DNA of 37,489 bases from Planctomycetota bacterium (GTDB taxonomy: Bacteria > Planctomycetota > B15-G4 > JADJEK01), in assembly GCA_016213895.1 (NCBI GenBank), contig JACQZJ010000064.1, positions 1 through 37,489 of the forward strand. The letters run 5' to 3'. Both the position numbers and the translations under genes were made by a program. Positions within the stretch are counted from its first letter, which is position 1; each line of letters begins with the position of its first letter. The notes beneath the pieces were generated by a model that saw only the letters and a list, made by a program, of their open reading frames with translations, ran no database searches and was not told the origin of the DNA. Shown here in pieces: positions 6,330-35,517 of this stretch.

Positions 6330-8018
6330 ATGAGCGCCGACCCACAGAACAGCGACACGCCCGAGCCGAGCATCGTCCAGGACCTCGTCATCGAGTGCCT
6401 CGACCGCCTGGAGGCGCAGGGCCTCAAGGCGATCGACGACGTCTGCCGCGAACACCCCGAGCACGCCGGGGCGATCCGCAGGAAGCTCGCCAAGCTGCAG
6501 GAGGTCGGGCTCTTGGACGACGCGGCCGCGGCGCCGGCCGCGCAGGGCGAGGTCCGCATCCCGGAGAAGCTCGGCGAGTTCCGCCTGCTCGCCAAGCTCG
6601 GCGGGGGCGGCATGGGCGTGGTCTACCTGGCCGAGCAGGAGGGCCTCGGCCGCCAGGTGGCGCTCAAGCTCATCAAGCCGGAGCAGCTCCGCTTCCCCGG
6701 CGTGCGCGAGCGCTTCCGCCGCGAGGTGAAGACGATCGCGAAGCTCAAGCACCCGGGCATCGTGCCGATCTACACCGTGGGCGAGGACGCGGGCATCCCC
6801 TACTTCGTCATGGAGCACGTGCGCGGCGCCACGCTCGACGAGGTGCTCGCCGCCCTGCGCGGCAGGAAGCCCGAGACCCTGAGCGGCGCGGACATGGCCG
6901 CGGCCGTGGCCGAGCGCGCCGGCGGTGCGGAGGGCACTGGCCCCGAGCTGGCGGTCGCCTACCTGTTCAGCGGAAGCTGGGAGCAGTGCTGCCTGCGCGC
7001 CGTCCAGCAGGTGGCGGAGGCGCTCGAGCACGCCCATCGCCGCGGCATCCTGCACCGCGACATCAAGCCTTCGAACGTCATGATCACGCCGGCTGGGCGG
7101 GCGCTGCTCTTCGACTTCGGCCTGGCCACGGGCGAGGACGTGACGCGGCTGACGCGCACCGGCGTGCGCCTCGGCTCGCTCTACTACATGTCGCCCGAGC
7201 AGGCGCGCGGCGAGTTCGATCGGCTGGACGTGCGCACCGATGTCTACTCGCTCGGCGTCACCCTGTACGAGCTGCTGGCGCTGCGGCCGGCCTTCGCGGG
7301 CGACTCTGCCCACGAGGTGTTCCAGGCCATCCAGGAGGGAAAGCCGCAGCCGCTGCGCCGCCGGAACCCCGCGGTCTCTTGGGAGGCGGAGGCGGTCTGT
7401 GCCAAGGCCATAGACGCCGCGGCGGCGCGGCGCTACGGCCGCGCCGCGGACCTCGCGCGCGACCTCGGCAACGCTCTCGATCACCGCCCGCTCGAGGCGC
7501 GGCGCGGGGGCGCGCTCAGCCGCGCGCGGCGCCTGGCGCTGCGCGGTCCGGCGCGCTGGGTGCTGAGCCTGCTGTTCCTGCTGCTCGCTGCCGGCGGGTC
7601 GATCGGCTTCGGCTTGATGGAGCGCGCCGCTCGCCTGCGCGCCGAAGCGCAGAGCGAGCGAGCGCTCGAGAGCCTCGAGTGGGCGGCAGGCGTTCTCCTC
7701 GACCTCGGCCGGCACGAGGAGGCGGCGCGGGCCGCCGAGGGCCTCCTGGCCGCTTCCCCCGAGTCCTTCGAGGAACACGTCAACGCCGCGCGCTTGCTGC
7801 TCCGCTGCGCGGACGAGGCCGAGCGCCAGGCGACGGCCGCACCTGGCGCGCTCGCGGAGCAGCACGCGCAGCGCGCGCTCGAGCTGCTCGGCCGCGCCGC
7901 GGAGCTGGGCTTCGCGGACGCCGCGGTCTTGCGCGCCGATCCCAGCTTCGAGCGGCTGCGCGAGCTGCCGGACTTCCAGGAGCTGATCGAACGCATCGAG
8001 AAGCGCGGCCGCGGCTGA
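6330..8018 (+). CDS. Transmembrane Hanks-type Ser/Thr protein kinase (562 aa)
   Basis: A full kinase domain is visible: glycine loop LGGGGMGVVY (residues 90-99), ATP-contacting Lys113 (VALKLI), catalytic loop HRDIKPSN (242-249), DFG (262-264) and SPE in place of APE (288-290). An acidic leader of about 80 residues precedes it. About 40 extra residues sit between the hinge and helix E (roughly 175-218). One hydrophobic helix at about 409-427 anchors the protein. About 130 residues follow, probably outside, with helical TPR-like or coiled sequence (WAAGVLLDLGRHEEAARAAEGLL). Substrate and signal are unknown. The start at 6330 is the first ATG after the preceding gene and has no clear Shine-Dalgarno. 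It converges on the secreted-protein gene at 8152. Confidence 0.88.
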   Translation: MSADPQNSDTPEPSIVQDLVIECLDRLEAQGLKAIDDVCREHPEHAGAIRRKLAKLQEVGLLDDAAAAPAAQGEVRIPEKLGEFRLLAKLGGGGMGVVYLAEQEGLGRQVALKLIKPEQLRFPGVRERFRREVKTIAKLKHPGIVPIYTVGEDAGIPYFVMEHVRGATLDEVLAALRGRKPETLSGADMAAAVAERAGGAEGTGPELAVAYLFSGSWEQCCLRAVQQVAEALEHAHRRGILHRDIKPSNVMITPAGRALLFDFGLATGEDVTRLTRTGVRLGSLYYMSPEQARGEFDRLDVRTDVYSLGVTLYELLALRPAFAGDSAHEVFQAIQEGKPQPLRRRNPAVSWEAEAVCAKAIDAAAARRYGRAADLARDLGNALDHRPLEARRGGALSRARRLALRGPARWVLSLLFLLLAAGGSIGFGLMERAARLRAEAQSERALESLEWAAGVLLDLGRHEEAARAAEGLLAASPESFEEHVNAARLLLRCADEAERQATAAPGALAEQHAQRALELLGRAAELGFADAAVLRADPSFERLRELPDFQELIERIEKRGRG

Positions 8019-8151: not shown

Positions 8152-8925
8152 TCAGAGCATTCCGCACGAGGACGAGATCTTCAATGCCCGGTCGTCGTCC
8201 CCGACCAGCAGGCCGCGGTCCACATCCTCGTCGATGAGAATCAGGAACTGCGTGCGGCTGAGCAGCAAGACGCGGACACCGTGCGCCTCGAGTTCATGGA
8301 CGATGTCCATCGTGAGATCAGAGAGGCGGGTATACGATCCCGTGGAGAACGTCGCCGTGTGACGGTCCGTGCCGACCTCGACCGTTGCCGGATCGCCATC
8401 CATCGTCACCCCCGCGATGGCGCCTTCGAGGCTCACGGTGGCGACGAGGACCGGGTCCTGCGGCAGAGCCGCCGCAAGAAGGTCGGTGTAGGTCGTCTTG
8501 TGCTTTTCGTCCGTGTTGCTTCCGCTGAAGTTGACGTCCGTGATCGTCCCGCCCGGCACGCTGATGACCACCGCGCCCTCCACGGCGACCGCACTGACCG
8601 GCTTGCCCGCTGCCGCCGCCGCATCGTTGATGTCCTTCGCGATCGCCTGGGCCTTCTGGTCGTCGGTCTGTCCCTTCATGATGGCGCCTCGTGCCGCGGC
8701 CTGTGCCGGCGTGTCGTTCTCGCCCTTCTCGGGCGTCGTGACGGGCAGTGTCTCCCTCACGTTGCTCCCGGAGACCTTGTACTTGATGTCGAAGCTCTCC
8801 TGGCCCGTTGACTTCGGCGTCCCGACGTCGAGCGTGGCAATGGCGCCCCACGATGCCGACGTGCAGGCCAAGATCCAGGCCCCTGCAAAAGCGGTCCCCA
8901 CGATTCTCCGGCTCGGTGCGTTCAT
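8152..8925 (-). CDS. Secreted protein of unknown function, ATGA-coupled to the sigma-like gene (257 aa)
   Basis: The start ATG at 8925 has AAGGAAG just upstream and begins a signal peptide (basic MNAPSRRIV, hydrophobic core, Ala-rich cleavage region near residue 28). The mature part has two apparent halves: a Lys/Glu/Thr-rich segment with the helix AIMKGQTDDQKAQAIAKDI, then a beta-rich segment (VSAVAVEGAVVISVPGGTI, LVATVSLEGAIAGVTMDG). A C-terminal Leu/Val-rich region reads HGVRVLLLSRTQFLILIDED. No family is recognised. The ATG overlaps the stop of the upstream sigma-like frame as ATGA, consistent with co-expression. It shows no visible similarity to the glycine-rich pair at 23229 and 26492, although one of those also follows a sigma-gene copy. 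Confidence 0.75.
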   Translation of the reverse strand: MNAPSRRIVGTAFAGAWILACTSASWGAIATLDVGTPKSTGQESFDIKYKVSGSNVRETLPVTTPEKGENDTPAQAAARGAIMKGQTDDQKAQAIAKDINDAAAAAGKPVSAVAVEGAVVISVPGGTITDVNFSGSNTDEKHKTTYTDLLAAALPQDPVLVATVSLEGAIAGVTMDGDPATVEVGTDRHTATFSTGSYTRLSDLTMDIVHELEAHGVRVLLLSRTQFLILIDEDVDRGLLVGDDDRALKISSSCGML

Positions 8926-10061
8926 GACTTCCTTACTCCCTTGCAGAAACGGGTGTCTTCGCGTGCGGATTGGACTGGCAGCACGGGGATTGCTCCGTCT
9001 GCCGGCGTTCGACGCGCTGGAAGGAACTGGTGCCAAGCCGCGGACTGCGGTCCTGGGCTCCCTGGTTCCTCAACGCGCTCCCCGGAGTCCTCGCGATCCA
9101 TGACCGAGGCCGTCCGGGGGCTCCGCTCGAAGCGCCGGCCAGAGCCAGACCCGCGTGAGGGGATCGCCTGCTTCCCAGGACGGAGGATTGGTCGGGCTTC
9201 TACCCGCGCGTGCGGCATGCCTTGCCGCCGCCGGGCCGACGATGCCGAAACCTGCGACAGCAAGATCCCCGGGCCCCGCACAACAAGCCGCCTGGCGTCT
9301 CCAGCCCTTCCTGCCATGTCAGGCACTCCCGTCCACCTTCTTCCTTCGGAGCCAGAGACCCACGCCGCGTCCTGCTGTGCATCTTGCGAAAAGGGAGGGG
9401 GAGGGGTAGCGATCCACGGGTTTTTCTTGGTGAATCTGCCCGGCCACCTCTCCCGGCAGGAGGCTCCGGTGAGGACGGCGCGATGCATGTCGTGCGCCAC
9501 GCGGATGAGCCGCCGTGCCTCCTCCGCGCCGATCGGCGCCCCTCGTCGGGCCGTGGCCCAGGTGAAGAGGTAGCGGGCGACCTCCCGGCGCGGACGGCCC
9601 AGCAAGTACTGCATCTCGACGATCTGAGCGTAGGGCTGCGGCAGGGCGCGCGCCGCCTGCGCGATGCTCCGCCGCAGGGCCGTGGCCGCGTCTCGCTCCG
9701 CGGTCTCGTCGGCTTGCGGCTCGGCGGCAAGCTCCTCTCCGCCGAGAGCCTGGGACGGCCCGAGCGCGGCCGAGGCAGCGCGACGGACGCCGGCGCTGGC
9801 GCTGCGCACGAGCCGCGCGAGCCAGGGCAGCTCCGACTCGACCGCTGCACCGGAGAGCACCCTCTGCCAGGCGCCGAGAAGCACCGCTTGAAACGCATCC
9901 TCGACTCCCGGCTCATCCAGCCCGCTGGCGCGGAGCGCCTGCCGCACCTCGGGACCGGCCGCTTCATGCCAGCGGGCAAGAGGCGCGGGGTCTCCGGCAG
10001 CCGCCCGGTTGAGAGCATCTAGAAGCCCCTCCGCCCGCCCGGTCAGCCTCGGCGTACGCAT
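8922..10061 (-). CDS. ECF-like RNA polymerase sigma factor with unusual C-terminal extension (379 aa)
   Basis: Residues of about 20-100 resemble sigma region 2 (GVEDAFQAVLLGAWQRVL, then LPWLARLVRSASAGVRRAA). Residues of about 128-200 resemble region 4 with a helix-turn-helix (LPQPYAQIVEMQYLLGRPRR, then GAEEARRLIRVAHDMHRAV). A conserved tail RFTKKNPWIATPPPPFSQD (209-227) follows. In the second copy (28052-28268) the equivalent tail is followed at once by a stop. Here no stop appears and the frame runs about 150 more codons of Arg/Ser/Gly-rich, apparently unstructured sequence to 8922, where TGA overlaps the next gene's ATG. The extension may be a read-through tail after stop loss or not be translated. 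ATG 10061 is chosen by alignment with the second copy. The sigma role is inferred from motif style and the target promoters are unknown. Confidence 0.7.
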   Translation of the reverse strand: MRTPRLTGRAEGLLDALNRAAAGDPAPLARWHEAAGPEVRQALRASGLDEPGVEDAFQAVLLGAWQRVLSGAAVESELPWLARLVRSASAGVRRAASAALGPSQALGGEELAAEPQADETAERDAATALRRSIAQAARALPQPYAQIVEMQYLLGRPRREVARYLFTWATARRGAPIGAEEARRLIRVAHDMHRAVLTGASCRERWPGRFTKKNPWIATPPPPFSQDAQQDAAWVSGSEGRRWTGVPDMAGRAGDARRLVVRGPGILLSQVSASSARRRQGMPHARVEARPILRPGKQAIPSRGSGSGRRFERSPRTASVMDREDSGERVEEPGSPGPQSAAWHQFLPARRTPADGAIPVLPVQSAREDTRFCKGVRKS

Positions 10062-10173
10062 GGCCTTCCCACGCCGCCTCCGCAACCCCCACCCGCCGCC
10101 GGGCGGAGGCTCCCGGCCGCGGCCAGAATCTGGACGCCGCAGGAAGGCGCCCGTCGCCTTCCAGCGCGCGTCC

Positions 10174-10223
10174 TCCCTACTTGCCGGAAGGGCGGGCGAC
10201 CATTTCACAAGAAACGAGAATAC
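10174..10223 (-). promoter_or_regulatory. Conserved upstream region of sigma-like gene, copy 1
   Basis: Read on the minus strand this 50-base block begins GTATTCTCGTTTCTTGTGAA and continues TGGTCGCCCGCC. It is about 80% identical, with one single-base gap, to 28339-28387 upstream of the deleted copy. It ends 112 bases before the start codon at 10061. Its conservation while the coding copy decayed suggests a promoter or operator, perhaps autoregulatory; that role is inference. Confidence 0.5.
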
Positions 10224-10257
10224 TCGCCCGCCGGCCGCCGGGAGGCCGTGGGCGCGC

Positions 10258-12621
10258 CTACGCCTTCTGCTTCCTCCGCGCCACGTACTCCAGGACCGCC
10301 CGGCACTGCTGCTCGCCGTCCATGCCCGCCTCCTTCAAGACCATCTGCGCCTGGCCGCTGCCCAGGAAGTGCCCCTTCTGGAAGGGGTACAGGGTCAGCG
10401 AGCGGCCGAGGTCGGAGCGGATCCAGCGATACATGGTCGGGAGCGTGAAGCCGGTGATGCCCATCGCGCTCTGAGCCACGTCCTCCGGGAAGATCCTCTG
10501 CTGCTCCGCAGGCGGCAGCGCGTCGAACAGCTCCGCGCTCGCCACGTAGTAGAGGTCGAGGTCCACGCCCTTCTTGTCGAGCAAGGGCAGCGCCTGCTCG
10601 ACGAAGGCCATGGTGACGCCGCTCCCCTGCAGCACGATCGAGCCCTCCGCCTTGCCCTTGGCCTTGCGCAACCGGTACACGCCCTGCGCGGCGTCCGTGG
10701 CCGGCGCCATCCTCAGGGCGCGGCGGTCCGGCACGGTCTCGTTCGGCCGCGTGACGAAAGGCGCGATCACGGCGAAGCGCCTGGCGAGAGCGGCGGTGAA
10801 CAGGGGCCAGAGCTCCTGCGGATCCCAGGGCGTGAGCGTGGCCGCCGTTCCGGCCGGGAAGTTCTCCTGCAGGAGCTGCAGCGGCTGCGGGTCGGCGTGG
10901 GTCGGGCCGTCCTCGCCTGTCTTGATGCCCGCGTGCGCGCACACCAGGATCATCGGCCGGTAGGCTTCCTTCTTGATGGCCTGGCGCGCCTGGCTGCCGA
11001 TGCAGTGGAGGCGCGCCGCGATGTGGCCGAGCGGCGCGATGAACGCGGCGTAGGACGAGGCAGCTCCGATGTGCCGGCCGAACGCGGCCAGGCCCGACGC
11101 GATCCCGGCCATGGCGTCCTCGCAGATGCCGCCGGCAGCCAGGCGGCGCGCGTTCGGGTTGTCCTGCGCGTTGTAGTAGCCGTCCGGGAACCCGTGCGCC
11201 GCGACCGAGACGCTCGTGGAATCGAGCAGGTCGGCGGCGGAGGCGAAGATCGCGCCCTTGCTCACCTTGTTGTAGTAGTTCAGGACCTTGCCCAGCTCGC
11301 CGCGCAGGGTCGTGGAGGTCCCGGGCCGCAGCTCGAACTCGGCGGGCACGGTGTCGCCGTTCTTCCGCGCCAGCTCGAAGGCCGCGGAGAGGTCGGGCGC
11401 GCCCTCGCGCGGCTTGCGCTTCTTGCCCTCGAGGCGCTGCCGCGCCTTCTCCAGCCGGGTGGTGAAGAACTTGTTCAGGCCGCTGTTCCCCTCGATCTCC
11501 TTCCTGACCAGCGACAGTGCGTCGAAAAAGCACTGCTCCATCACGGCGGCGCCGTCCTCGCCGGAGCAGCGCTGCTTGCCGTCGCAGCAGGCCGGGAGCT
11601 CGGCGCCCTTGCCTTCGAGCAGCGGCTTCATGGCGGCGTAGAAGCCCTCGGAGCAGAGCTTGTGGCCGCCGCCGTGCGAGGCGCGCCCCTCGATGCCGTA
11701 GCGCCAGCCCTTGACCGTGCGATAGACGATGGCGGTCGGCTGCCCGTTGTCGATGGCCGCCGCCTTGCGCTGCGCGGCGACGACCTGCTGGAAGTCCTTG
11801 CCGTCCGCCACGAACACGACGTTCCAGTCGTGCAGGTAGAACAGCTCCGCGGGATCCCACTGCACGTAGTCGCCCGGCTCGCGGCCGTCGCGGCACACGC
11901 GGTTCGAGTCGATCGACGCCTGGTTCCAGTCGAGGTGCACCACGGCGTTGTCCAGGCGCGCCGTGCCGGCCGCCGCCAGGGCCTCGGCCACGCGGCCGGG
12001 CGTCAGGCCGCCCTCGCCCTCGATGATGTGCACGCGCGGAGCGTTCTTGCCGTAGTAGTCGCGCGCGCCGAGCGCGAGCCCGAGGGAGGCCGTGACCCCC
12101 ACCCCGGACGCGCCGGTGGAGAGGCGCAGGAACGGCGTGGCAGGAGTCGGGTGCCCGTCCAGCGCCTTGGCCTTGAACTTGATGTAGAGCGGCGTGCGCG
12201 TCGCGGGGTTGCGCCGGAAGCCGAGCAGGTCCTCGAGGCGCAGGCGAAGCTCCTCGTCCGCGGGCAGGAGCGCCGGGGAGGCGGCGCGCGCCAGCTCGTC
12301 GCGCAGCGCCCACATCACGTACAGGCCGAGCGCCTTGTGCCCGGCCGCGTAGGAGATCAGGTCGGCGTCCTCGCGGTCCGGATTGGCGAGGTCGTAATCC
12401 ATGCCGTCGAAAAGCAGCGCGGTCACGATCCGGCCCGAGGAGATCGACCCGCCCGGGTGGCCGGACATCGGCACGTAGTTGTAGAGCAGGCTGCAGGTGC
12501 TGCGGTAGATCAGGTCGTAGGCCTCGAACTGCGCCAGCTCGCTCGCGGAGAGCGGGGCCTTTCCCATCTCGGACTGGATGTCGATGTAGATCCCGCGCCG
12601 GGGCCCGAGCGTGAAGGTCAT
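10258..12621 (-). CDS. Transketolase-family thiamine-diphosphate enzyme (copy B, 787 aa)
   Basis: Transketolase architecture: SGHPGGS (53-59), DLISYAAGHKALG, a cofactor stretch IEGEGGLTPGRVAEALAAAG followed by HLDWNQASID, then the pyrimidine-domain signature IKTGEDGPTHADPQPLQLL. The last is the GEDGPTH motif of true transketolases. A C-terminal domain ends in ARRKQKA. Like copy A it has GEGG...DWN instead of GDG...N, so the two are related but strongly diverged. The expected reaction is two-carbon ketol transfer between sugar phosphates in the pentose-phosphate pathway; the substrate range is not readable. ATG 12621 is supported by AAAGGAG upstream and skips an Arg-rich in-frame extension to 12699. 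It diverges from the MNT-HEPN gene. Confidence 0.85.
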   Translation of the reverse strand: MTFTLGPRRGIYIDIQSEMGKAPLSASELAQFEAYDLIYRSTCSLLYNYVPMSGHPGGSISSGRIVTALLFDGMDYDLANPDREDADLISYAAGHKALGLYVMWALRDELARAASPALLPADEELRLRLEDLLGFRRNPATRTPLYIKFKAKALDGHPTPATPFLRLSTGASGVGVTASLGLALGARDYYGKNAPRVHIIEGEGGLTPGRVAEALAAAGTARLDNAVVHLDWNQASIDSNRVCRDGREPGDYVQWDPAELFYLHDWNVVFVADGKDFQQVVAAQRKAAAIDNGQPTAIVYRTVKGWRYGIEGRASHGGGHKLCSEGFYAAMKPLLEGKGAELPACCDGKQRCSGEDGAAVMEQCFFDALSLVRKEIEGNSGLNKFFTTRLEKARQRLEGKKRKPREGAPDLSAAFELARKNGDTVPAEFELRPGTSTTLRGELGKVLNYYNKVSKGAIFASAADLLDSTSVSVAAHGFPDGYYNAQDNPNARRLAAGGICEDAMAGIASGLAAFGRHIGAASSYAAFIAPLGHIAARLHCIGSQARQAIKKEAYRPMILVCAHAGIKTGEDGPTHADPQPLQLLQENFPAGTAATLTPWDPQELWPLFTAALARRFAVIAPFVTRPNETVPDRRALRMAPATDAAQGVYRLRKAKGKAEGSIVLQGSGVTMAFVEQALPLLDKKGVDLDLYYVASAELFDALPPAEQQRIFPEDVAQSAMGITGFTLPTMYRWIRSDLGRSLTLYPFQKGHFLGSGQAQMVLKEAGMDGEQQCRAVLEYVARRKQKA

Positions 12622-12744
12622 CCTGGTTCTCCTTTGGACAGTGATCGCGGCCGCCGCGCGCCGGAGAGGTCTCGCCCCGGCCGCCTGGCGATGCAGCATG
12701 CGGAAGAGAGCCTGGGCATTCTACCCTGGCCCGCAGGTGTGCTC

Positions 12745-13560
12745 ATGATTCCGCAGCGTGATGACGTGAAGACGCGCCTGGCGCCGCTCTCAGCGCGGCC
12801 AGAGGTGCGCTTGATCGTTCTCTTCGGATCCGTGGCTCGGGGCCAGTCCACGGCCGGGAGCGACGTGGACCTCGGCGTCATCGCGGAGGGCGGGGCCCAG
12901 GCGCTCCTGCCCGAGGTGATGCGCCTCCTCGGCACGGACCGCGTGGATGTCGTCGACCTGAGGCGCGCCACCCCGCTGCTGGCCATGTCCGTGGCGCGAC
13001 ACGGCATGGCGCTGCACGAGGATCGCAGGGGGGCCTTCGCGTCGTTCGTCTCGCTGGCGCTGCGCCGTTTCGAGGACACGAGGAAGCTGCGCCGCCTGCG
13101 CGAGCAGGCGCTCTGGCGCTACGCGCGCCGCGTGCGGGGCGAGGCGGCCGGGGACGTCGTGGACCGCGAGCTGGCACGGCTGAGGCTCGACCGCATCCGG
13201 GAGAACCTGCGGCTGCTCGAACCGATCGCGCAACTTCCGCCCGCGCAATACGCCGAGGACGTCTACCGCAAGAAGGCGGCCGAGAAGCTGCTCCAGGAAG
13301 TGGTCGAGGCCGCGGCCGACGTGAACGCCCACGTCCTGGTCGAGAGCGGCCGCCCGGCTCCGGACGATCTCTACTCGAGCTTCCTCGGGCTCGCCGAGCT
13401 CGGCGTCCTCGACCAGGACCTGGCCCGGCTGCTCGCGCCGTCCGCGGGGCTCAGGAACCGGTTGGTTCACGAGTACGAGCAGATCGACGACGCCCTGGTT
13501 CTCGCGTCTCTGCGCGAGGCGCTCGACCTCTACCCGCGCTTCATCGCCGCGGTCCAGCAG
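12745..13560 (+). CDS. Fused MNT nucleotidyltransferase-HEPN protein (MntA-HepT type antitoxin-toxin), no in-frame stop
   Basis: Residues 1 to about 100 are a minimal nucleotidyltransferase domain: GSVARGQSTAGSDVDL (28-43), the GSx10DxD motif, and DVVDLRRA. After a helical linker, residues of about 138-270 are a HEPN domain with RNRLVHEY (237-244), that is R-x4-H-x-Y, the RNase motif plus the Tyr that MntA enzymes AMPylate in HepT toxins. The two are normally separate overlapping genes. Here one frame spans both, although the GTG at 13159 sits where hepT would start. ATG 12745 has AGGTG upstream. The recognisable domain ends near 13560, but the frame stays open to 16428, antisense to the OPT gene; the next stop is one frame over at 13598-13600. 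The real end is therefore unknown. Confidence 0.7.
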
Positions 13561-15585
13561 CGCGCCGAGCACGAGAATGCAGCCCACGCTCAGCAAGTAG
13601 GACGGAGCGGCGAAGAGCTGCGGAGTGCGCAAATCGCCGAAGGCCATGCCCGCGAACAAGAGGCCGAGCAGCGCCTCGCCGGCGATCATCCCGGACGCCA
13701 CCAGCACCCCCACGTTCGAGACCCTCTCCTTGGTCGCTGCCGTCGCCTGGCGCTTGTCCAGCGCGCGCTCGAGCAGCCCCTTCATCAAGCCGCCCACGAA
13801 GATGGCGAACGAGGTCTCGATCGGCAGGTACATGCCCACGCTGATCAGCATCGGGCTCTTCACCTGCATGAGGATGAGCGCCAGCCCCATGAAGACCCCG
13901 GCCACGATCAGGATCAGCTCGGTCTTCGCCTCGACGATCCCGCGGCCCACGACCGCCATCAGGCTGGCCTGCGGCGCGGCGAGCCTGTCGCCGCCGAAGC
14001 CCGCCTGCGTGCCGAGCACGTCGTTCTGCTGCTCGGGCTCGAGCGCCCGGATCTCGGCCAACGTGTACTGCGTGCCGGCGAGCTCCAGGTGCTTGCCCTG
14101 GTAGGTCACGCTCGCGACCTGCTGCTCCTCGAGGCGCTCCAGCTCATCCGCGACCGCGCCCTTCACGTCGCCGAGGTGCAGCAGCGCGAGCACGAAGAAC
14201 ATGACCACGGCGCTGGAGATGATGCCGAAGATGTCGCCGACCTGCATCCTCCAGGGCGTGCAGCCCAGGATGTGCCCGGCCTTCAGGTCCTGCATCATCT
14301 CCCCGGCCACGGACACGCTGGTGCAGGCGAACGCGGCCACCCCCAGGACGGCCGCGAGGCCGGCCTCGCCGTGCATGCCGAGCGCCACCATGAGGAACGC
14401 CACCACGATCAGCACCGAGACCGTCAGCCCGCTGGTCGGGTTGTTGCTCACGCCGATCATGCCCACGAGGTGCCCCGACACCGCGGCGAACACGAAGCCG
14501 AGGAAGAGCATCACGATGGCCGCGACGCCGGCGGGCATGAGCCGGCTGGTGAAGTAGTTGAAGACGAAGAGCATGACGCCGGTGATGACGCCGATCGCGA
14601 GCAGCGACCAGCGGATGTTGATGTCCCTCTCCGTGCGCGGCAGCTCCCCTTCGCCCTGCGCCGACTTGCGCACGTAAGAAAAGGAGCGCCGCAGGCCGGT
14701 GAAGAGGCTGCCACGCATGCGGTAGAGCGTGTAGAAGGCGCCGACCAGCATGCCGCCGATGGCGACGTAGCGCACCGAGCCCTTCCACACCGCGGTCAGC
14801 TCCGCCTGCCAGTCGGTCACCGCGCTCAGGTCGTCGCGATGGATGAAGTAGGCGATCAAGGGCGCGAGCAGGCCCCAGGCCAGCACGCCGCCGCTGAAGT
14901 TGATCGCCCCGAGCTTGGGCCCGATGATGTAGCCCACGCCGAAGTAGGCCGGGTTCATGCCGGGCGCGCGCAGGAGCAGGCTGCCCTTCGTGAGGCTGAC
15001 GAGCTTCTGCCAGCCGCCGGCCACCACCTGGAACTCCACCAGGGCCTTGAAGAAGGCGCCCGCGCCCATGCCCAGGAACAGGAAGCGCGAGCCGCTGGCG
15101 CCGGCCTGGCCCGACTTGTGGATCTCCGCCGCGGCGATCGATTCCGGGAAGGGCAGATCCTTGTCCTCGACCAGCACGCGCCTGAGGATGGTGACGAACA
15201 TGATCCCGAGCACGCCCGCGACGATGAGGATGATGGTCGAGATGATGGCGTGCTCGAACGAGAAGAAGGGATCCCACACGGAAGCGATGTAGAAGGCGGG
15301 CAGGGTGAAGGTCGCGCCGGTGGCGATGTTGCCGCCGATCGAGCCCACGGTGCGCGCCGCGTTCTCCTCGAGGAGCGTGCCCTTCATGGCCTTGATCACG
15401 GCCATGCCCACCACGGCGGTGGTGTAGGTCGCGGCGATCGTCATGCCGGCGGTCAACCCGAGGTAGGCGTTGGCCGCGCCCATGATCGCCGCCATGACCA
15501 CGCCCAGGAGCACGGCCTTGAGCGTGAACTCGGGCATCCGGGATTCGGCGGGAACCAGCGGGGTGGTGTGCTTCTCGTCTGCCAT
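12790..15585 (-). CDS. OPT-family oligopeptide/metal-chelate transporter with aberrant 3' end
   Basis: A polytopic inner-membrane protein: ATG 15585 (MADEKHTTPLVP) leads to EFTLKAVLLGVVMAAIMGAA and AYLGLTAGMTIAATY, the N-terminal signature of OPT transporters, with about 14-16 hydrophobic segments. Family members import oligopeptides or metal-siderophore complexes with protons; the substrate is unassigned here. Homology-like sequence ends with the last membrane helix (SYLLSVGCILVLGALL) near 13555, about 675 residues, a normal family length. The frame then continues 255 codons antisense to the MNT-HEPN gene before a stop at 12790. That tail is Arg/Gly/His-rich and almost certainly not native. 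An in-frame GTG at 15636 would add 17 residues. It is tail-to-tail with MNT-HEPN. Confidence 0.85.
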   Translation of the reverse strand: MADEKHTTPLVPAESRMPEFTLKAVLLGVVMAAIMGAANAYLGLTAGMTIAATYTTAVVGMAVIKAMKGTLLEENAARTVGSIGGNIATGATFTLPAFYIASVWDPFFSFEHAIISTIILIVAGVLGIMFVTILRRVLVEDKDLPFPESIAAAEIHKSGQAGASGSRFLFLGMGAGAFFKALVEFQVVAGGWQKLVSLTKGSLLLRAPGMNPAYFGVGYIIGPKLGAINFSGGVLAWGLLAPLIAYFIHRDDLSAVTDWQAELTAVWKGSVRYVAIGGMLVGAFYTLYRMRGSLFTGLRRSFSYVRKSAQGEGELPRTERDINIRWSLLAIGVITGVMLFVFNYFTSRLMPAGVAAIVMLFLGFVFAAVSGHLVGMIGVSNNPTSGLTVSVLIVVAFLMVALGMHGEAGLAAVLGVAAFACTSVSVAGEMMQDLKAGHILGCTPWRMQVGDIFGIISSAVVMFFVLALLHLGDVKGAVADELERLEEQQVASVTYQGKHLELAGTQYTLAEIRALEPEQQNDVLGTQAGFGGDRLAAPQASLMAVVGRGIVEAKTELILIVAGVFMGLALILMQVKSPMLISVGMYLPIETSFAIFVGGLMKGLLERALDKRQATAATKERVSNVGVLVASGMIAGEALLGLLFAGMAFGDLRTPQLFAAPSYLLSVGCILVLGALLDRGDEARVEVERLAQRRENQGVVDLLVLVNQPVPEPRGRREQPGQVLVEDAELGEPEEARVEIVRSRAAALDQDVGVHVGRGLDHFLEQLLGRLLAVDVLGVLRGRKLRDRFEQPQVLPDAVEPQPCQLAVHDVPGRLAPHAARVAPERLLAQAAQLPRVLETAQRQRDERREGPPAILVQRHAVSRHGHGQQRGGAPQVDDIHAVRAEEAHHLGQERLGPALRDDAEVHVAPGRGLAPSHGSEENDQAHLWPR

Positions 15586-15698
15586 GCTCGCGCTCGCGAC
15601 AGGGGGGGTTTCGGTGCGTCCGGTGAATCCGGACACGTGCGAAGTCTACTGGTGGCGAAAGCGAGGGGACAAGCAAATCGAGCCCCGCGCGCGCCGGG

Positions 15699-16196
15699 CT
15701 ACGGCGCGATCCAGATGCCGCTCGCCAGCACCGTGAGGTTGCCGGCCGCGTCCCGGCGCGCAATGCCGGCCACCACGACCGCCCGCAGGTGGTCGAGGCC
15801 GTGGAAACCCTGGAGGCCCGCCTCGATCAGCTCGCCGTCCTTCCGAAACTCGACCGTGGCGCTGGCGCGGGCCACCTCGGCCTGGTCCTCGCAGCAGAAG
15901 TCCCAGGGCGTGGCGCAGGAGTCCGCCCCCTTCTCGCCGCAGGCCGGAATGGAGCGATCGACGAGCGTGAGCACGGCGGCGCTGGCGACGAAGTCCCGTG
16001 CGCGCGCGCGCACGGCCACGACCTCGCCGTCTCTTGCCTCGGCGCGCACCGCGAGCAAGTCCTTTGCGCCCGCCGGCTCGGCGCTCAGGAAGAAGGAGTC
16101 AGGAAGCGCCGCGACCGCCGCGGGCGCTGGCTTCTCGCCGGCATCGCAGCCCGCGAGAACAACCAGGAACAGAGGGAGAAGACCGTATCGTGACAT
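15699..16196 (-). CDS. Small lipoprotein with Cys cluster, end of export operon (165 aa)
   Basis: The signal MSRYGLLPLFLVVLAGC has a clear lipobox (Cys17). The mature protein is mainly beta-rich with a central Cys cluster, CGEKGADSCATPWDFCCEDQ: five cysteines in 20 residues, suggesting disulfides or metal binding. No named family is assigned. GGAGG lies just upstream of ATG 16196. It begins 18 bases after the stop of the truncated permease and is probably the last gene of the minus-strand export operon. A sequence-based guess would be a periplasmic or surface accessory, but nothing fixes its role. Confidence 0.75.
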   Translation of the reverse strand: MSRYGLLPLFLVVLAGCDAGEKPAPAAVAALPDSFFLSAEPAGAKDLLAVRAEARDGEVVAVRARARDFVASAAVLTLVDRSIPACGEKGADSCATPWDFCCEDQAEVARASATVEFRKDGELIEAGLQGFHGLDHLRAVVVAGIARRDAAGNLTVLASGIWIAP

Positions 16197-16214
16197 GAGA
16201 ATCCTCCAGACGTG

Positions 16215-17195
16215 TCAATCCTCGCGCAGAGCAGCGGCCACATGCAAGCGCAGCGCGAGGAGCGAACGCGCCAGGGCGAGAGCGCCGAAGCCCAGGGCGC
16301 GCAGCGTGGCCAGCTCGCCGGCGCGCTCGCGCACGGCCGTATGCAGCGTGCTCGCTCCGGTGAGCAGGCCGGCGACCGCGATCAGCAGGCACATCGCCAC
16401 CACCAGACGCCTGAGCGGTCCGAAGTAGGCCGCGAGGTCCGCGTAGTAAGCGCTCGAGCGCACGCTCGAAAGCTCGAGGTCGAGCCGCCGCCGGCTGAAC
16501 ACCTCGAGCTCGGTGAACGCCCGCGGCGACTCGAGGCCGACGAATACGCACGAGATGTCGTCGCGCCGCGCCACGCCCATCAGTTCATGCAGCGGCGCCC
16601 AGATCTCCCCCTCGAGGGCGGTGCCGGGCGCAGCGAAGCGGCCGGAGACCCTGTACGCCCGGCCTTCGATACGAATGGTCGCACCGACTGCCAGGCGCTC
16701 GTCGGCCACGCCCAGGCGCGTCGCGGCGAGGCGGCCAGCGACGACCTCTCCCGGTCCGGGAGTCGATCCCTCGAGGAGCGTGACCGCGCCGTGCACCAGG
16801 AAGGCTCGGCTGGTCACGCCGCGCAAGAGCGCCGCGTGGCGCTCGGGCTCGTCGCCCAGGCAGATGTCGTAGGCGAGGTGGATCTCGGGCGAGACATGGG
16901 GTACACCCTCGCTCGAGCGCACGCCCTGCACCTCCGCGGCCACGATCTCGGCCACCGCCGGGCTGATGGCCGAGCGCATGACGTCGCGCTCCGAGGCGGC
17001 CGATACCAGGATCGCGACGTCCTCGCGCCCCATGCCGCTGAAGCCGCGGGAGAGCGCGCGGGAGAAGGCCGCGGCCGCGACGAGCAGCGCCGCGACCAGC
17101 GCGCAGGCGAGCACGCCGAGCAGCGACCGGAGCGGCCGGCGCAGCAGGTTCTTCGCCGCATAGTCGAAGGGCAAGAGGCGCAGTGCAACCATCAC
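16215..17195 (-). CDS. FtsX/MacB-type ABC permease lacking its last membrane helices (326 aa)
   Basis: The protein has the usual start (basic NLLRRPLRSLLG, then a helix of about 20 residues at 27-46), a periplasmic domain of about 200 residues and the second helix (LVVAMCLLIAVAGLLTGAST). The cytoplasmic FtsX signature follows (VRERAGELATLRALGFG). The family continues from there with two more membrane helices of about 60 residues. Here the frame ends after ARSLLALRLHVAAALRED, and the lipoprotein gene begins 18 bases later. No other frame downstream encodes the missing helices. The start ATG overlaps the stop of the neighbouring permease as ATGA. It probably pairs with permease 17192-18334, but its competence to form a channel is doubtful. 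Confidence 0.8.
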   Translation of the reverse strand: MMVALRLLPFDYAAKNLLRRPLRSLLGVLACALVAALLVAAAAFSRALSRGFSGMGREDVAILVSAASERDVMRSAISPAVAEIVAAEVQGVRSSEGVPHVSPEIHLAYDICLGDEPERHAALLRGVTSRAFLVHGAVTLLEGSTPGPGEVVAGRLAATRLGVADERLAVGATIRIEGRAYRVSGRFAAPGTALEGEIWAPLHELMGVARRDDISCVFVGLESPRAFTELEVFSRRRLDLELSSVRSSAYYADLAAYFGPLRRLVVAMCLLIAVAGLLTGASTLHTAVRERAGELATLRALGFGALALARSLLALRLHVAAALRED

Positions 17196-23228: not shown

Positions 23229-24668
23229 CTAGACTGACGTGCCCGACGTGCCGTGGACTTCTCCGTTCGCCACGTTGACCTTCGCTCCGGTGCCGTGTTT
23301 CCCGAGCGCCCCGCCGCCGCCTGGGGCCTGGCCGCTGAGGAACCCCGCAGTACCCTTCGCACTGCCGCCCGACCCACCCTCGCTCGATCCACCACCTGGT
23401 GTGCCGCCCTCGCCGCCCTGGGCAGTCGCCTTCTTGCCCGCGACTTTGTTCTCCGCGCTTGCCGGGCCGCCCTGTCCGCCCTTTCCACTGCTGTCCCCGC
23501 CGTCGCCGCCGATTGCCACTGCGTCGCCGCCGTTGCTCGTGGCCTTCGCTTCACCGCCCTTGGATTCGCTCCCCGGAGCGCCGTTGCCGGCGGCGGCCAC
23601 CGCCGCTCCTCCCGACTGTGTGTTCTCTGCTGTCGCGTTGTCACCCGAAGCTCCCTCGCTCCCGTTCGACCCAACCGCGATGACCAGGTCCGCCGCCCCG
23701 CTCACCGTGCCGAAGCCAACTATCACCGTCATACTCCCGACGGTCACGGACCTCTTCCCGCTGGACATCCCGCAGTTCTTGAGGCACGCGTCCAAGGCGT
23801 CGGCTGCAGCCGCGACGTCGTCCGGTCGGCCAATGCTCGTCTCGCTGCCGTCTTCAGTCGTGGCCTCCGTCGCATTCACCGCACTGATGAAGGCCGCCAC
23901 GCAGTCCGCGACACACTCATCGATCGACAGCTTCACCGGCGGATCCGCCTCGACCACGTGTTCGCTATGCACCACGAAGTACTGGTAGAGCCCCCACAAG
24001 GGGCACAGCAGCTGTACCCGATCGCCCACCGCCCCAAAACCAATCGACGCCAGGTCCACGTCGATCCGGTACATACGATCGCGAATGAACTCCTCGCGCG
24101 AGTCGTCCCAGACGACGGTCTCGGTCAGGTTCGCCGCCGCGGTCACGTCCAGGTCGTTCATTAACACGGTCGTCTGCCGGTCGAGGACCGTCATGCCCTG
24201 AATCCTGAGGTAGAAAGACACGACGTCGCCGTTCACGGCCCTCACCCAAGTCGTGTCGCTCGTCCCGATCGTCGCCGGAGGCGTCATCGACATGGTGCGC
24301 ACGATGAGCCTCTCGACCCCTCCGTTCCACACCTGCGCCTTCAACACCAGCATCGTGTCGTCGTACGATAGGCTCGACAGGTCCAGCGAGTAGCGATGCA
24401 CGAACGTCTCGTACACGCCGTCGCCGTTCTGATCGACCGCCCGGACTACCCACGACGACTGCACCACGGTGCTCGTGACGTCCGTGTCGCCCTGCTTGAT
24501 CGAGAACTCGTCTCCGGACTGGTCGATCTGACGAGCCACGACGTCGGCCACGACGGGTCCAGCTAGTGGTTGCACGAACAAAGGGAAGTTGATGTCCACC
24601 GTTGTCTGCGCGCAGGCCGCCGACGACATGGCCGCGACGGCCGCCGCGCACAACGACTTCCTCAACAC
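23229..24668 (-). CDS. Secreted glycine-rich protein, paralog 1 (479 aa)
   Basis: The signal peptide (VLRKSLCAAAVAAMSSAACA) precedes a beta-rich domain (about 20-260) with NGDGVYETFVHRYSLDLSSL, LVLKAQVWNGGVERLIVRTM and EEFIRDRMYRIDVDLASIGF. A Cys-bearing helical segment follows (ADALDACLKNCGMSSG). The last ~150 residues are a low-complexity Gly/Ala/Asn/Ser region (TAENTQSGGAAVAAAGNG, KATSNGGDAVAIGGDGG). It is clearly paralogous to 26492-27937 over its whole length. GTG 24668 is chosen because it gives the same signal peptide and length as the paralog (479 against 481), with GAGAGGGG upstream. ATG 24695 would add nine residues. Function is unknown; a surface or matrix role is only a guess. Confidence 0.82.
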   Translation of the reverse strand: MLRKSLCAAAVAAMSSAACAQTTVDINFPLFVQPLAGPVVADVVARQIDQSGDEFSIKQGDTDVTSTVVQSSWVVRAVDQNGDGVYETFVHRYSLDLSSLSYDDTMLVLKAQVWNGGVERLIVRTMSMTPPATIGTSDTTWVRAVNGDVVSFYLRIQGMTVLDRQTTVLMNDLDVTAAANLTETVVWDDSREEFIRDRMYRIDVDLASIGFGAVGDRVQLLCPLWGLYQYFVVHSEHVVEADPPVKLSIDECVADCVAAFISAVNATEATTEDGSETSIGRPDDVAAAADALDACLKNCGMSSGKRSVTVGSMTVIVGFGTVSGAADLVIAVGSNGSEGASGDNATAENTQSGGAAVAAAGNGAPGSESKGGEAKATSNGGDAVAIGGDGGDSSGKGGQGGPASAENKVAGKKATAQGGEGGTPGGGSSEGGSGGSAKGTAGFLSGQAPGGGGALGKHGTGAKVNVANGEVHGTSGTSV

Positions 24669-24738
24669 GATCGCACCCCTCTCGCAGCAGTTCATGATGG
24701 GCCCTTTCCATCCCCCTTGATACCTCCGCCTCCCTCCC

Positions 24739-24751
24739 GGGGGGGGGGGGG
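24739..24751. repeat. Homopolymer of 13 G (poly-C on the coding strand)
   Basis: Thirteen consecutive G on the plus strand, within a G/C-rich patch. On the minus strand it lies 70 bases upstream of the GTG start and 43 upstream of the alternative ATG of the glycine-rich protein gene. Tracts of this length slip during replication. The paralog has no such tract. Confidence 0.8.
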
Positions 24752-25086
24752 CGGGCCTCCGGGCCTCCTCGGATCCCCTCCGGGAGCTTCCCTTCAGGCA
24801 GAACCACGATACGAGGGACCGTTCGCGCGTGTCAAGCGGGCGCAGACAGATCTCTCCTGAAGCGGGGATGGCTGCCCGCATGGGTATCCTGCCGAATCTC
24901 GGAATCGGCGAGCGGCCGCCGCCGCATGAGGACCACCCTCGTGCCCGACCGAACGTAGCAACAACCCCTTCTCTCTTGGCCTGCACGAACGTAAGTCCTT
25001 TCAGGCAAATGATCCGACTTCTTGGACTGCGGAAGTTGGGCTACGGCGTGCCCGGTGTGACCACTGGTTCCCATCAGGTCATGGCG
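24752..25086. other. Intergenic region upstream of two divergent genes
   Basis: This 335-base stretch separates the poly-G tract from the palindrome of the ATPase gene. I see no supported gene. It is less GC-rich than the flanks around 24960-25070, as expected for promoters serving the divergent genes. No sigma-gene remnant like that at 28052 was found here. Confidence 0.5.
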
Positions 25087-25117
25087 TGAAACTTAGCGCT
25101 TGCGCGCCTAAGTTTCA
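25087..25117. promoter_or_regulatory. Palindromic operator-like site upstream of the ATPase gene
   Basis: TGAAACTTAG (25087-25096) and CTAAGTTTCA (25108-25117) form a perfect 10-bp inverted repeat with an 11-base GC-rich spacer, ending 37 bases before the start codon. The A/T-rich arms stand out from the surrounding base composition. It may be a protein binding site or a hairpin in the leader RNA. Confidence 0.6.
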
Positions 25118-25154
25118 TGGACACAGACGCAGACCGCACTTACGCTCGTGGGCC

Positions 25155-26315
25155 ATGGACCGACTCGACTACCTGGCCCGCATCCAACGCGGATTCCAGA
25201 TTCACCCCGTGGTGGTTCTCCTCGGGCCGCGCCAGGCGGGAAAGACCACGCTCGCGCGGGCCTACGTCGCTCGGATCGATGGGTTCCGTGCGGAACGAAA
25301 CTACTTCGATCTCGAGGACCCCACCGACCTCGGCCGGCTCGAGGCTCCGAAGCTCGCGCTGGAGCGGCTCGAGGGAATCGTCGTGGTCGACGAAGTTCAA
25401 CGATCCCCCGACCTGTTCCCTCTCCTCCGCACCCTGGTCGATCGTCCGCACAACCCGGCGCGCTTCCTGATCCTCGGCAGCGCGTCCCGCGATCTCATTC
25501 GGCAGAGCTCCGAGACGCTCGCCGGTCGCGTCTCCTTCATCGAAATCCATCCGTTCTCGGGCGTCGAGGTCGGCGTGAAGAACCTCGACCGCCTCTGGAT
25601 TCGCGGCGGGCTTCCTCCGGCCTACCTGCTCGAGTCCGATCAGGCCGCCTCGATGTGGCGCGAGTCGTACGTGAGGACATTCCTCGAGCGCGACGTTCCC
25701 TCGCTGGGCATCGATGTCCCTGCGAACGCCCTGCGACGCCTCTGGTTGATGTTGACTCACTACCACGGTCAGGTCATCAACCTGTCGGAGATCGCCCGTT
25801 CGATCGGAGTCTCCTACAAGACGATCGATCGCTACATCGACATCCTCGCCGGGACGTTCATGGTCCGCCGCCTCGCTCCCTGGTACGAGAACATCGGGAA
25901 GCGCCAGGTCAAACGCCCCAAGGTCTACTTCCGTGACTCCGGAATCCTCCATCAGTTCCTTGGTGTTGAAACGCGCGACCAGCTCGAAGTCCATCCCAGG
26001 CTCGGCGCGTCATGGGAGGGATTCGCGCTCGAGGAGGTGATCCGGCTGCACGGCGCCACCGCGGAAGAGGCGTTCTTCTGGGCGGTCCACGAGCAGATGG
26101 AGCTCGACCTGCTCTTGGTCCGCGGGGGGAAGCGATTGGGCTTCGAGTTCAAGTACGCGGACGCGCCGAAGCTCACGTGCGGTCTGATTGGGGCGCGGGA
26201 CCATCTCGGCCTCGATCAACTGACCGTCGTGCGCCCGGGGCGGGGCGACGCCCCCCTGGACGAGGGAATCACGGTCGTCGGATTGGAGACGCTCCTGAGC
26301 GAACGGCGCGCCTGA
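25155..26315 (+). CDS. AAA_14/DUF4143-family ATPase (386 aa)
   Basis: A family common in bacteria and archaea, of uncertain function. Walker A GPRQAGKTT (24-32), Walker B GIVVVDEVQRSPDLFPLLR and the sensor-like ILGSASRDLIRQSSETLAGR are present. A winged-helix-like region (VINLSEIARSIGVSYKTIDR) and a C-terminal nuclease-fold-like DUF4143 domain follow (WEGFALEEVIRLHG, FFWAVHEQMELDLLL, GFEFKYADAPK). The E...D...E-K pattern in that domain resembles PD-(D/E)xK folds, but activity is not established for the family. ATG 25155 begins the conserved N-terminus; an in-frame ATG at 25086 would run through the palindrome. It is a single-gene unit. Confidence 0.9.
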   Translation: MDRLDYLARIQRGFQIHPVVVLLGPRQAGKTTLARAYVARIDGFRAERNYFDLEDPTDLGRLEAPKLALERLEGIVVVDEVQRSPDLFPLLRTLVDRPHNPARFLILGSASRDLIRQSSETLAGRVSFIEIHPFSGVEVGVKNLDRLWIRGGLPPAYLLESDQAASMWRESYVRTFLERDVPSLGIDVPANALRRLWLMLTHYHGQVINLSEIARSIGVSYKTIDRYIDILAGTFMVRRLAPWYENIGKRQVKRPKVYFRDSGILHQFLGVETRDQLEVHPRLGASWEGFALEEVIRLHGATAEEAFFWAVHEQMELDLLLVRGGKRLGFEFKYADAPKLTCGLIGARDHLGLDQLTVVRPGRGDAPLDEGITVVGLETLLSERRA

Positions 26316-27937: not shown

Positions 27938-28051
27938 GGTCGACCTCCTTCCCTGCTTCTTCGGACCCGTCCGCGACCGCGGAGTCTGCCGGCGCCGCCC
28001 CTTCATGAGGCCGCCCTCTCCTGCAGGCCGCGGTGCGGACCAGGTCATCTG

Positions 28052-28268
28052 CTATCTATCTTCCAAGAAGGGAGGGGGAGGGGTGACGATCCACGAGTTT
28101 CTTCTCGTGAATCTCCCCCGCCACCGCTCCACTGGCTCGGAGCGCACGCCGCACTTCGGGACCCGCCGTCCGGTGCCAGCGCGGAAGAGCCGCCGGCTCA
28201 CCGGCCGCGGCTTTCCGCAGGGCATCCAGGAGCCCCTCTGCCCGGCGACTCAGCTTGGAAGTGCGCAT
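28052..28268 (-). pseudogene. Deleted copy of the ECF-like sigma factor gene
   Basis: The first 47 codons (MRTSKLSRRAEGLLDALRKA to ALRASG) match the start of the gene at 10061. The sequence then jumps to the equivalent of residue 204 onward. In the matching frame the tail reads RFTRRNSWIVTPPPPFLEDR and stops at TAG (28052-28054). About 470 bases holding most of regions 2 and 4 are gone, and the join is out of frame, so the actual product would be a 70-residue peptide ending at 28056. No sigma activity is expected. The tail differs from copy 1 mostly by conservative changes, and its stop shows the probable natural end of the family. Confidence 0.75.
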
Positions 28269-28338: not shown

Positions 28339-28387
28339 TCCCACTTGACGCAACGGCAGGCGATCATTTCACGAAAAACGAGAATAC
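28339..28387 (-). promoter_or_regulatory. Conserved upstream region of sigma-like gene, copy 2
   Basis: On the minus strand it starts GTATTCTCGTTTTTCGTGAA and continues ATGATCGCCTGCC. It aligns with 10174-10223 at about 80% identity with one gap. It ends 70 bases before the pseudogene ATG (28268). It may still drive the glycine-rich gene downstream. Confidence 0.5.
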
Positions 28388-34195: not shown

Positions 34196-34711
34196 TCAGA
34201 ATCCGCGGGATTCTGGCGCTGAGGACGCGTCACGTGGCTGTCCTTTGCGAACTGGACCGGCGGCGAGCCGCCGAAGGATGTCGGCGAACATCAGCGGTTC
34301 CGACGCGGACTCCGCCGGCGAGCGGGACAAGGGGCGAGCGCGGGCCTCGGGAGTTGGTCGCGCGTCGTCTGGTGGCCCGGGCGGGAGCGGGAGGAGCTGC
34401 CAGACGCCGTCCTGGCTGGTGGGATTCCACGGCCGGAAGGCGAGCAGCCCAAGATGCAGCAGCCGCTCGAGCGCCTGGTCGAGGACACGACGCATGAGGC
34501 CGAGGGCGGCGGCCATGCGGTCGCGGCCGTAGAACGAGGCGCCGCGGGCGTCGGCGGCGAGCGCCAGGAGCAGCAGCACGGCGGCGGCTTCGGGACCAAG
34601 CGAGCGCAGCCAGTTCTGGTGCAGCAGGCGCCCCGGGAGCCAGCCGAAGGGCTCCCGGGGTCTGCGCCACAGGTCCGGCCGCGGCGGGAGCGGCGGAGGG
34701 CGGGGTTTCAC
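34196..34711 (-). CDS. Third ORF of the IS21-like element, winged-helix-like (171 aa)
   Basis: The GTG start at 34711 overlaps the istB stop (GTGA), indicating translational coupling. A Pro/Arg-rich leader (KPRPPPLPPRPDLW) precedes residues of about 24-110, which look like a winged helix: FGWLPGRLLHQNWLRSLGPE, AVLLLLALAADARGASFYG, RVLDQALERLLHLGLLAF, DGVWQLLPLP. The tail is Arg/Ser/Pro-rich and passes a hairpin at its stop. Such a DNA-binding domain could assist target choice or regulation, but this is inference; canonical IS21 elements carry only istA and istB. The last dozen codons may lie outside the element (candidate end at 34235). Confidence 0.6.
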   Translation of the reverse strand: MKPRPPPLPPRPDLWRRPREPFGWLPGRLLHQNWLRSLGPEAAAVLLLLALAADARGASFYGRDRMAAALGLMRRVLDQALERLLHLGLLAFRPWNPTSQDGVWQLLPLPPGPPDDARPTPEARARPLSRSPAESASEPLMFADILRRLAAGPVRKGQPRDASSAPESRGF

Positions 34712-35517
34712 GCCGACTTCTTCCGCTTGCCAGGGTCCTTGGACTTGCGGGCGCGCCGGCGCTCGGCCTCGCGCTCCTTGGCCTCCTTGAGGCGGTAGGA
34801 CTCGCCGCGGATCTCCACGATCTCGGCCCGATGTATGAGGCGGTCGATGAGGGCTACGACCGACGTGGAGTTCGGGAAGACCTGGTTCCACTCCGAGAAC
34901 ACACGGTTGGTGGTGACGACCGTGGACTTGTCCTGGCGGCGGTTGATGACTTCGAACAGCAGGTCGGCGTGGCGGCTGTCGTAGGACAGGTAGCCGACTT
35001 CGTCCACGCACAACAGTGTCGGATGGGCGTAGCGCCGGAAGCGGCGCTCGAGGCCGGCGGGACCATCCTGGGTCAGCAGGTCGGAGAGCATCTGGCTGGC
35101 ACCGGCGAAGCGCACGGTGTAACCGCGCTGCACCGCCTCGTTGGCCAGGTTCTTGGCGATCATGCTCTTGCCCACGCCGTTGGGTCCGATGAAGACGGCG
35201 TTGGCGCCTTCCTTGACGAAGGACAGGGTGAAGAGCTCGTCGATCTGTTCGCGGTCGACTCTCTCCGGCCACTTCCAGTCGAAGTCGCACATGGGCTTGA
35301 AGCGGCCGCAGCGGGCGTTCCTGAGGCGGCGCTCGAGGCTGCGCCGCTGGCGCGCGGCTTCCTCGAGCTGGAGGACGTGCTCGACCCACGGCTGATCCTG
35401 GATCTCCTCCCAGTTGTCGAGAAGGCCGTAGAGGCCGAGCCTTAGGGCGCGCTCGCGCCGCCTGGCGGGATCATCATGCGACGGGGCAGGTGCAAGCAGG
35501 GTCGTGGTCATCGTCAT
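34708..35517 (-). CDS. istB: IS21-family helper ATPase IstB
   Basis: AAA+ ATPase of 269 residues that loads the transposase on target DNA. The N-terminal domain is followed by Walker A GPNGVGKS (111-118), Walker B TLLCVDEVGYLSYD, the sensor STVVTTNRVFSEWNQVFPNS and a C-terminal DRLIHRAEIVEIRGESYRLK, all typical of IstB. The Lys/Arg-rich end (KSKDPGKRKKSA) is also usual. It overlaps the istA stop by 44 bases and is followed by the GTGA-coupled third ORF. Confidence 0.95.
   Translation of the reverse strand: MTMTTTLLAPAPSHDDPARRRERALRLGLYGLLDNWEEIQDQPWVEHVLQLEEAARQRRSLERRLRNARCGRFKPMCDFDWKWPERVDREQIDELFTLSFVKEGANAVFIGPNGVGKSMIAKNLANEAVQRGYTVRFAGASQMLSDLLTQDGPAGLERRFRRYAHPTLLCVDEVGYLSYDSRHADLLFEVINRRQDKSTVVTTNRVFSEWNQVFPNSTSVVALIDRLIHRAEIVEIRGESYRLKEAKEREAERRRARKSKDPGKRKKSA

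Follow-up and report, generated by a model that had tools for sequence, protein, structure and literature searches.

The stretch of DNA analysed here (the window, 37,489 nt; contig C103 of a 5.5-Mb planctomycete genome) carries an ECF-like sigma factor gene, copy 1, followed by a gene for an exported protein, cargo 1, and this arrangement recurs in the family to which copy 1 belongs. An exported or N-terminally anchored protein is encoded directly downstream, on the same strand, at 8 of the 10 intact homologs, as judged by an ORF scan together with hand reading. An association of these tail-bearing sigma genes with exported neighbours is likely, though not proven. The best explanation of the whole, which we hold to be slightly better than an even bet, is that copy 1 is a self-activating, tail-bearing ECF sigma factor at the head of a short operon with a variable exported gene, and that a remnant of a second such module is served in trans. 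Copy 1 would represent a rare planctomycete ECF family whose members end in a conserved Trp/Pro-rich tail and have no anti-sigma factor evidently encoded next to them. It would most likely activate the promoter in front of its own gene, the short operon would then be transcribed, and expression of the next gene, an exported or anchored protein that differs from locus to locus, would be raised; that is, we infer that the sigma factor transcribes its cargo. In the second window module, the sigma-coding part was lost by internal deletion with the putative promoter kept, so that either copy 1 or a paralog on contig C53 could now switch on, in trans, the gene behind it, which encodes the glycine-rich protein GRP2. 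The tail would be the obvious candidate for holding the sigma factor inactive.

Little is understood of ECF sigma factors that lack an anti-sigma partner. If each sigma factor of this family were dedicated to one exported protein, the pair would form a simple, testable circuit for surface-protein control. The conserved tail is a candidate for a further mode of sigma-factor regulation, and with the remnant module nature provides a test case for control in trans. The features of the window are collected in Table 1.

Table 1. Positions of the sigma genes, promoter footprints, exported proteins and neighbouring kinase in the window.
Feature	Position	Strand	Remarks
Ser/Thr protein kinase	6330..8018	plus	Pfam PF00069; convergent with cargo 1, no demonstrated link
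Cargo 1, 257-aa exported protein	8152..8925	minus	Paralogs on contigs C11 and C109; a distant one in genome G002
In-frame read-through of the copy 1 sigma ORF	8922..9389	minus	Runs to a TGA overlapping the cargo start (ATGA)
Copy 1, ECF-like sigma factor	10061-9390	minus	224-aa core, C-terminal tail WPGRFTKKNPWIATPPPPF
Putative ECF-type promoter footprint, copy 1	10180..10223	minus	GTATTCTCGTTTCTTGTGAAATGGTC-N14-CAAG; from conservation and genome-wide pattern searches
GRP1, glycine-rich exported paralog	23229..24695	minus	No sigma remnant in front
GRP2, glycine-rich exported protein, 481 aa	26492..27937	minus	Downstream of the remnant
Sigma remnant, whole	28268-28052	minus	Upstream region, first 48 codons and last ~25 kept
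Sigma remnant head, first 48 codons	28125..28268	minus	73% identity to sigma copy 1
Sigma remnant tail codons	28052..28129	minus	ERWRGRFTRRNSWIVTPPPPFLEDR and stop; reading of the DNA; out of frame with the head
Putative promoter footprint of the remnant	28344..28387	minus	GTATTCTCGTTTTTCGTGAAATGATC-N14-CAAG; from conservation and genome-wide pattern searches

The gene order at copy 1 bears out the sequence-only reading, which had placed a sigma factor before a 257-aa secreted protein: the downstream ORF has a signal-peptide-like N terminus. In the AlphaFold2 model of copy 1 the mean pLDDT is 88, with a low-confidence stretch at residues 102-116 (the linker), and at a pTM of 0.49 the relative placement of the sigma2 and sigma4 domains is not confident. 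Region 2 matches sigmaE with a Z of 9.4 and region 4 matches SigL with a Z of 5.8; since Z values in this range can come from a shared arrangement of helices, sequence matches to sigma families matter too. Nearly all of the top rows of a Foldseek search with the model are ECF sigma entries, the best at E 3.3e-3 and none below 0.001. The sequence scores of copy 1 lie under the curated cut-offs, with 18.7 vs 25.7 bits for Pfam Sigma70_r4_2 and 26.4 vs 42.9 bits (E 4.5e-6) for NCBIfam TIGR02937. On its predicted fold, copy 1 is an ECF protein made up of only sigma2 and sigma4 domains with a linker between them. It thus shares with the ECF class (group IV, TIGR02937) the arrangement of the two domains, with SigL, SigK and E. 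coli sigmaE as the best structures, and differs from it in the sub-cut-off sequence score and, as far as reading of the adjoining genes goes, in its neighbours, no anti-sigma-like gene having been noticed at the ten intact loci. The planctomycete and Rhodopirellula ECF subfamilies TIGR02989 and TIGR02984, of the same phylum by name, gave weak matches in 7/10 and 3/10 members; copy 1 itself scored 16.5 bits against a cut-off of 124.55 for TIGR02989, and TIGR02984 was not reported for it at E <= 1.

The copy 1 frame remains open for 155 codons beyond the homologous end at residue 224, up to the TGA at the cargo ATG. As none of its six frames scores as coding and 15% of simulated sequences likewise stay open, we read this stretch as the probable result of a lost stop codon, not as a domain. 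Translational coupling through the ATGA overlap was considered and rejected on the same figures; the counterpart stretch in genome G099, of 50 codons, stays open in 79% of simulations.

Of 392 genomes sampled from the phylum, five carry at least 10 intact homologs between them (two in G000, one in G099, four in G105, one in G120 and two in G234), and a Trp/Pro-rich C-terminal tail is common to all. The family size is a lower bound because only the seven best candidates per genome were scored in the 392-genome profile searches. A profile built from seven members recovered the other three (two from G234 and one from G120) at 91-94 bits across the 392 genomes; a truncated G145 copy came next with 71 bits, and the matches after it scored 58 bits or less; a later 392-genome profile was built from the same ten members that it recovers. 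The G145 copy has no tail and was left out of the intact count, and order-level searches around G234, G105 and G099 yielded nothing else above 60 bits. The full-length paralog in the genome of the window (C53:17000-17674) is 52% identical to copy 1. We found no description of this tail-bearing sigma family in the open-access literature searched.

The genes beside these homologs are varied. Apart from cargo 1, the next gene encodes a 264-aa exported protein and then a CarboxypepD_reg protein (G099), a 111-aa exported protein and then a protein with a weak CarboxypepD_reg match (G105:C45), an exported PSD1/PSCyt1 protein (G105:C9), a 237-aa exported protein with weak Big_6 and CarboxypepD_reg matches (G105:C25), a small glycine-rich ORF whose N terminus includes a hydrophobic segment and then an anchored protein without a Pfam match (G120), a 1586-aa exported RHS-repeat protein (G234:C90), and a glycine-rich exported protein followed by a CarboxypepD_reg match below the cut-off (G234:C434). 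Behind the C53 paralog lies a gene for a 388-aa protein without an exported N terminus, and directly upstream, on the same strand, one for an 808-aa protein that has a single membrane segment, at its N terminus, and CarboxypepD_reg domains (E 1e-27). The remaining homolog (G105:C11, locus L046) has no exported gene downstream; next but one upstream on the same strand, beyond a MauE-like gene (weak Pfam match, E 0.0067), is a gene for an anchored protein of CarboxypepD_reg type, and the CarboxypepD_reg-like match there is weak as well. With one neighbour protein taken at each of nine loci, CarboxypepD_reg was matched at E <= 0.001 in six of the nine and above the Pfam cut-off in three; none of the eight window proteins scanned has it.

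BLAST comparisons show no relation between the cargos of different loci, the only strong pair being GRP1 and GRP2 of the window; a match at E 0.005 links two of the anchored proteins. Low-complexity regions were masked, which puts kinship among glycine-rich repeats outside the reach of the search. As most of the downstream proteins have no kinship with one another, the proposal of exchangeable cargo fits. Cargo 1 itself has no Pfam match at E <= 1 and no NCBIfam match at E <= 0.1, and its model is of low confidence (mean pLDDT 65). A likeness of this model to flagellin and phage tail-sheath chains was rejected, as the Foldseek matches were weak and none fell below E 0.001.

Relatives of the cargos also occur by themselves. 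The genome encodes two close paralogs of GRP2, namely GRP1, in the window, and GRP3, on contig C211, and no family sigma gene was found in front of either or of the cargo 1 paralogs on C11 and C109. In another genome, a related glycine-rich protein (E 2.6e-11) is followed by MauE and CarboxypepD_reg genes (G082:C108, locus L150), and none of the 144 candidates in G082, all scored, is a tail-bearing sigma factor. Exported modules of this kind thus occur with and without a sigma gene.

The foremost alternative to the operon explanation is that the neighbourhood is incidental: exported proteins are abundant in planctomycetes, so that finding one beside an ECF gene would say little, and the two window copies would be just a duplicated stretch. 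We consider this possible, although distinctly the less probable view. To compare the downstream neighbours, controls were taken from the 54 Sigma70_r2 matches in the genome of the window; 20 were left out for open frames above 458 aa and two for sub-cut-off scores, and of the 32 that remained two lie at contig ends, giving 30 ordinary ECF genes (28 in the classifier set, where two more had no predicted host gene). By hand reading, which is our own judgement, the next gene is exported in 8/10 members vs 3/30 ordinary ECFs (L127, L129 and L134; p = 8e-5), and a scan for signal-bearing ORFs within 300 nt found 7/10 vs 6/30 (p = 0.006); both contrasts argue against an incidental neighbourhood, as does the recurrence of similar kinds of neighbour (glycine-rich, CarboxypepD_reg) in several genomes. 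When the next gene was called automatically, its predicted start carried a signal in 4/10 vs 1/30 (p = 0.01). Other uniform criteria gave no clear contrast and favour the incidental reading, namely the same scan within 600 nt (8/10 vs 13/30, p = 0.07), an automatic neighbour-calling criterion (3/10 vs 3/30, p = 0.15) and an automatic exported-protein classifier (3/10 vs 7/30, p = 0.69), and the cargo paralogs without sigma genes point the same way.

With the last two criteria, starts were misplaced and glycine-rich genes overlooked among the family members, and they are still the uniform result; in the neighbour calling, which also rejected second hydrophobic segments, one of the three positive members counts through its second gene. 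Six of the 28 controls were called exported by the classifier, four of which were dropped by hand because the hydrophobic segment starts at residue 34-54; setting 8/10 members against 6/28 would give p = 0.002, with the eight hand-read too. The contrast with ordinary ECF genes is accordingly mixed across the automatic criteria (p from 0.69 to 0.006). For the dedicated modules that the sequence-only reading had proposed, these results cut both ways: the genes downstream of the homologs are of the kind it expected at eight of the ten intact loci, but the contrast depends on the criterion, the cargos have sigma-less paralogs and the second module of the window is a remnant.

A possible self-activation is suggested by the region upstream of the sigma genes. 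A block of the form ATTyTCGkTTyyyGyGAAATGrTC...CAAG in front of copy 1, the remnant and the C53 paralog is 0.69-0.80 identical, and both the 5' flank (0.29-0.61) and the leader (0.42-0.62) are less alike. With up to three mismatches allowed, a 26-nt version of the motif occurs twice in the window vs 0.00 expected in shuffles, and a 23-nt version occurs in the 5.5-Mb genome only at the copy 1 and remnant sites. The pattern GAAATGRTC-N11-15-TCAAG, which was derived from the very loci that it finds, has just two exact occurrences in 5.5 Mb, one in front of C53 and one in front of the remnant (reversed control, 0), and copy 1 misses it by one base. In spacing and letters the footprint is similar to the kind of ECF promoter that has a GAAA-type -35 and a CGTC-type -10 element. 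The presence of the footprint before both sigma genes and the remnant suggests self-activation and, as the remnant has kept it, control of the remnant's cargo in trans. AAC and CGT appear as typical ECF promoter boxes in a review (PMC8103513).

The second copy lacks the functional parts of a sigma factor. Two blocks of its DNA match copy 1, of which one lies upstream and the other at the tail, and a protein search recovers, besides residues 1-48, residues 182-224 in another frame at 52% identity. The head runs directly into the tail codons, with region 2 and most of region 4 missing by our reading of the DNA, so the remnant cannot make a sigma factor. GRP2 starts about 120 nt past the end of the remnant ORF. 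The claim that a sigma factor is followed by a secreted protein twice in the window therefore holds for copy 1, an intact module, and not for the second copy, where the order before the glycine-rich protein is as described but the upstream element is no longer a sigma factor. We also considered whether the conserved 5' and 3' ends mark a mobile element and rejected this, as matches to either end are confined to two places in the genome; the C53 paralog keeps the tail with different codons, so the conservation of the end was read as acting at the protein level. In both window copies the tail DNA (28049-28130 and 9372-9453) contains the inverted repeat GATTCAC...GTGGATC with a C-rich stretch behind it, and could form a hairpin.

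How such a sigma factor would be held in check bears on two further alternatives. An adjacent cognate anti-sigma factor is typical of ECF sigma factors, although not obligatory, and most anti-sigma factors belong to the class of genes with an internal membrane segment. The next gene has such a segment in 9/28 ordinary ECFs (one of the nine encodes a 1290-aa protein), vs an anti-sigma-like gene noticed in 0/10 members (p = 0.08). In SigI-RsgI of Clostridium thermocellum, too, the gene for a surface protein lies next to that for its dedicated sigma factor; RsgI, however, is itself an anti-sigma factor with a surface domain, and no anti-sigma domain of the RsgI kind was noticed here. Copy 1 may instead take part in ordinary ECF signalling with a displaced regulator, either a distant anti-sigma factor or the convergent Ser/Thr kinase, the exported protein being one of many regulon members. 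The kinase gene adjoins the copy 1 module, and a kinase-like gene, judged by eye, lies near G234:C90, but kinase-like neighbours were noticed at only 2/10 loci. Ser/Thr kinases phosphorylate the sigma factors of the groups ECF43, ECF59, ECF61, ECF62 and ECF217. The exact promoter pattern was found only before family genes, which speaks against a broad regulon, although a degenerate one would escape such a search. Phosphorylation-controlled ECFs are known, with planctomycete members listed in PMC8999054. We regard a displaced regulator as unlikely on balance.

The tail is the other candidate for control of the sigma factor. In the alignment of the ten members (window numbering) W206 and P207 are near-invariant and W216 is invariant, and by reading, N-x-W followed by prolines occurs in 7/10 tails. 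A strict tail expression matched family members only among 153 loci and recovers 6/10 members, missing G234:C434 and three G105 copies. ECF41, ECF42 and ECF238/CorE, too, are described as continuing beyond region 4 (PMC8999054), whereas the tail here has about 25 residues and carries no extension domain, neither SnoaL nor TPR nor any other being detected in the ten members (Pfam, E <= 1), nor, by eye, a cysteine-rich one. A feedback in which export or accumulation of the cargo regulates the sigma factor through the tail, an extension of the best explanation, is improbable in our view: the conserved Trp and Pro positions and the regulatory C-terminal extensions of other ECF groups (PMC8999054) would suit it, but the cytoplasmic heads of the anchored partners are very short by reading and the cargo seems too varied for one binding site. 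The still broader picture of a cassette family, with its own promoter, an anti-sigma-independent tail-bearing sigma factor and swappable cargo, in which sigma-less satellites would be served in trans and the tail would couple to export, strikes us as hardly less doubtful.

Several smaller observations concern the window and the sigma-less genes. Runs of 11-13 C in the gene direction (24739-24751 in the window, L146:4768-4778 and L147:5479-5489) precede three exported genes that have no sigma gene (GRP1, a cargo 1 paralog and GRP3) at a distance of about 40-100 nt; no run of nine or more was found in 148.5 kb of control loci, in the rest of the window or in L043, L084, L085 and L148. Phase variation of these genes is possible. 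A TTGACA-type box is visible upstream of GRP1 and GRP3. Long antisense ORFs, such as that at 10009-16428 on the plus strand, were judged to be shadows of minus-strand genes. Two adjoining minus-strand genes at 34708-37018 presumably encode an IS21-type transposase and its ATPase, and a gene for an AAA_14/DUF4143 ATPase (25086-26315, plus strand) lies between GRP1 and GRP2.
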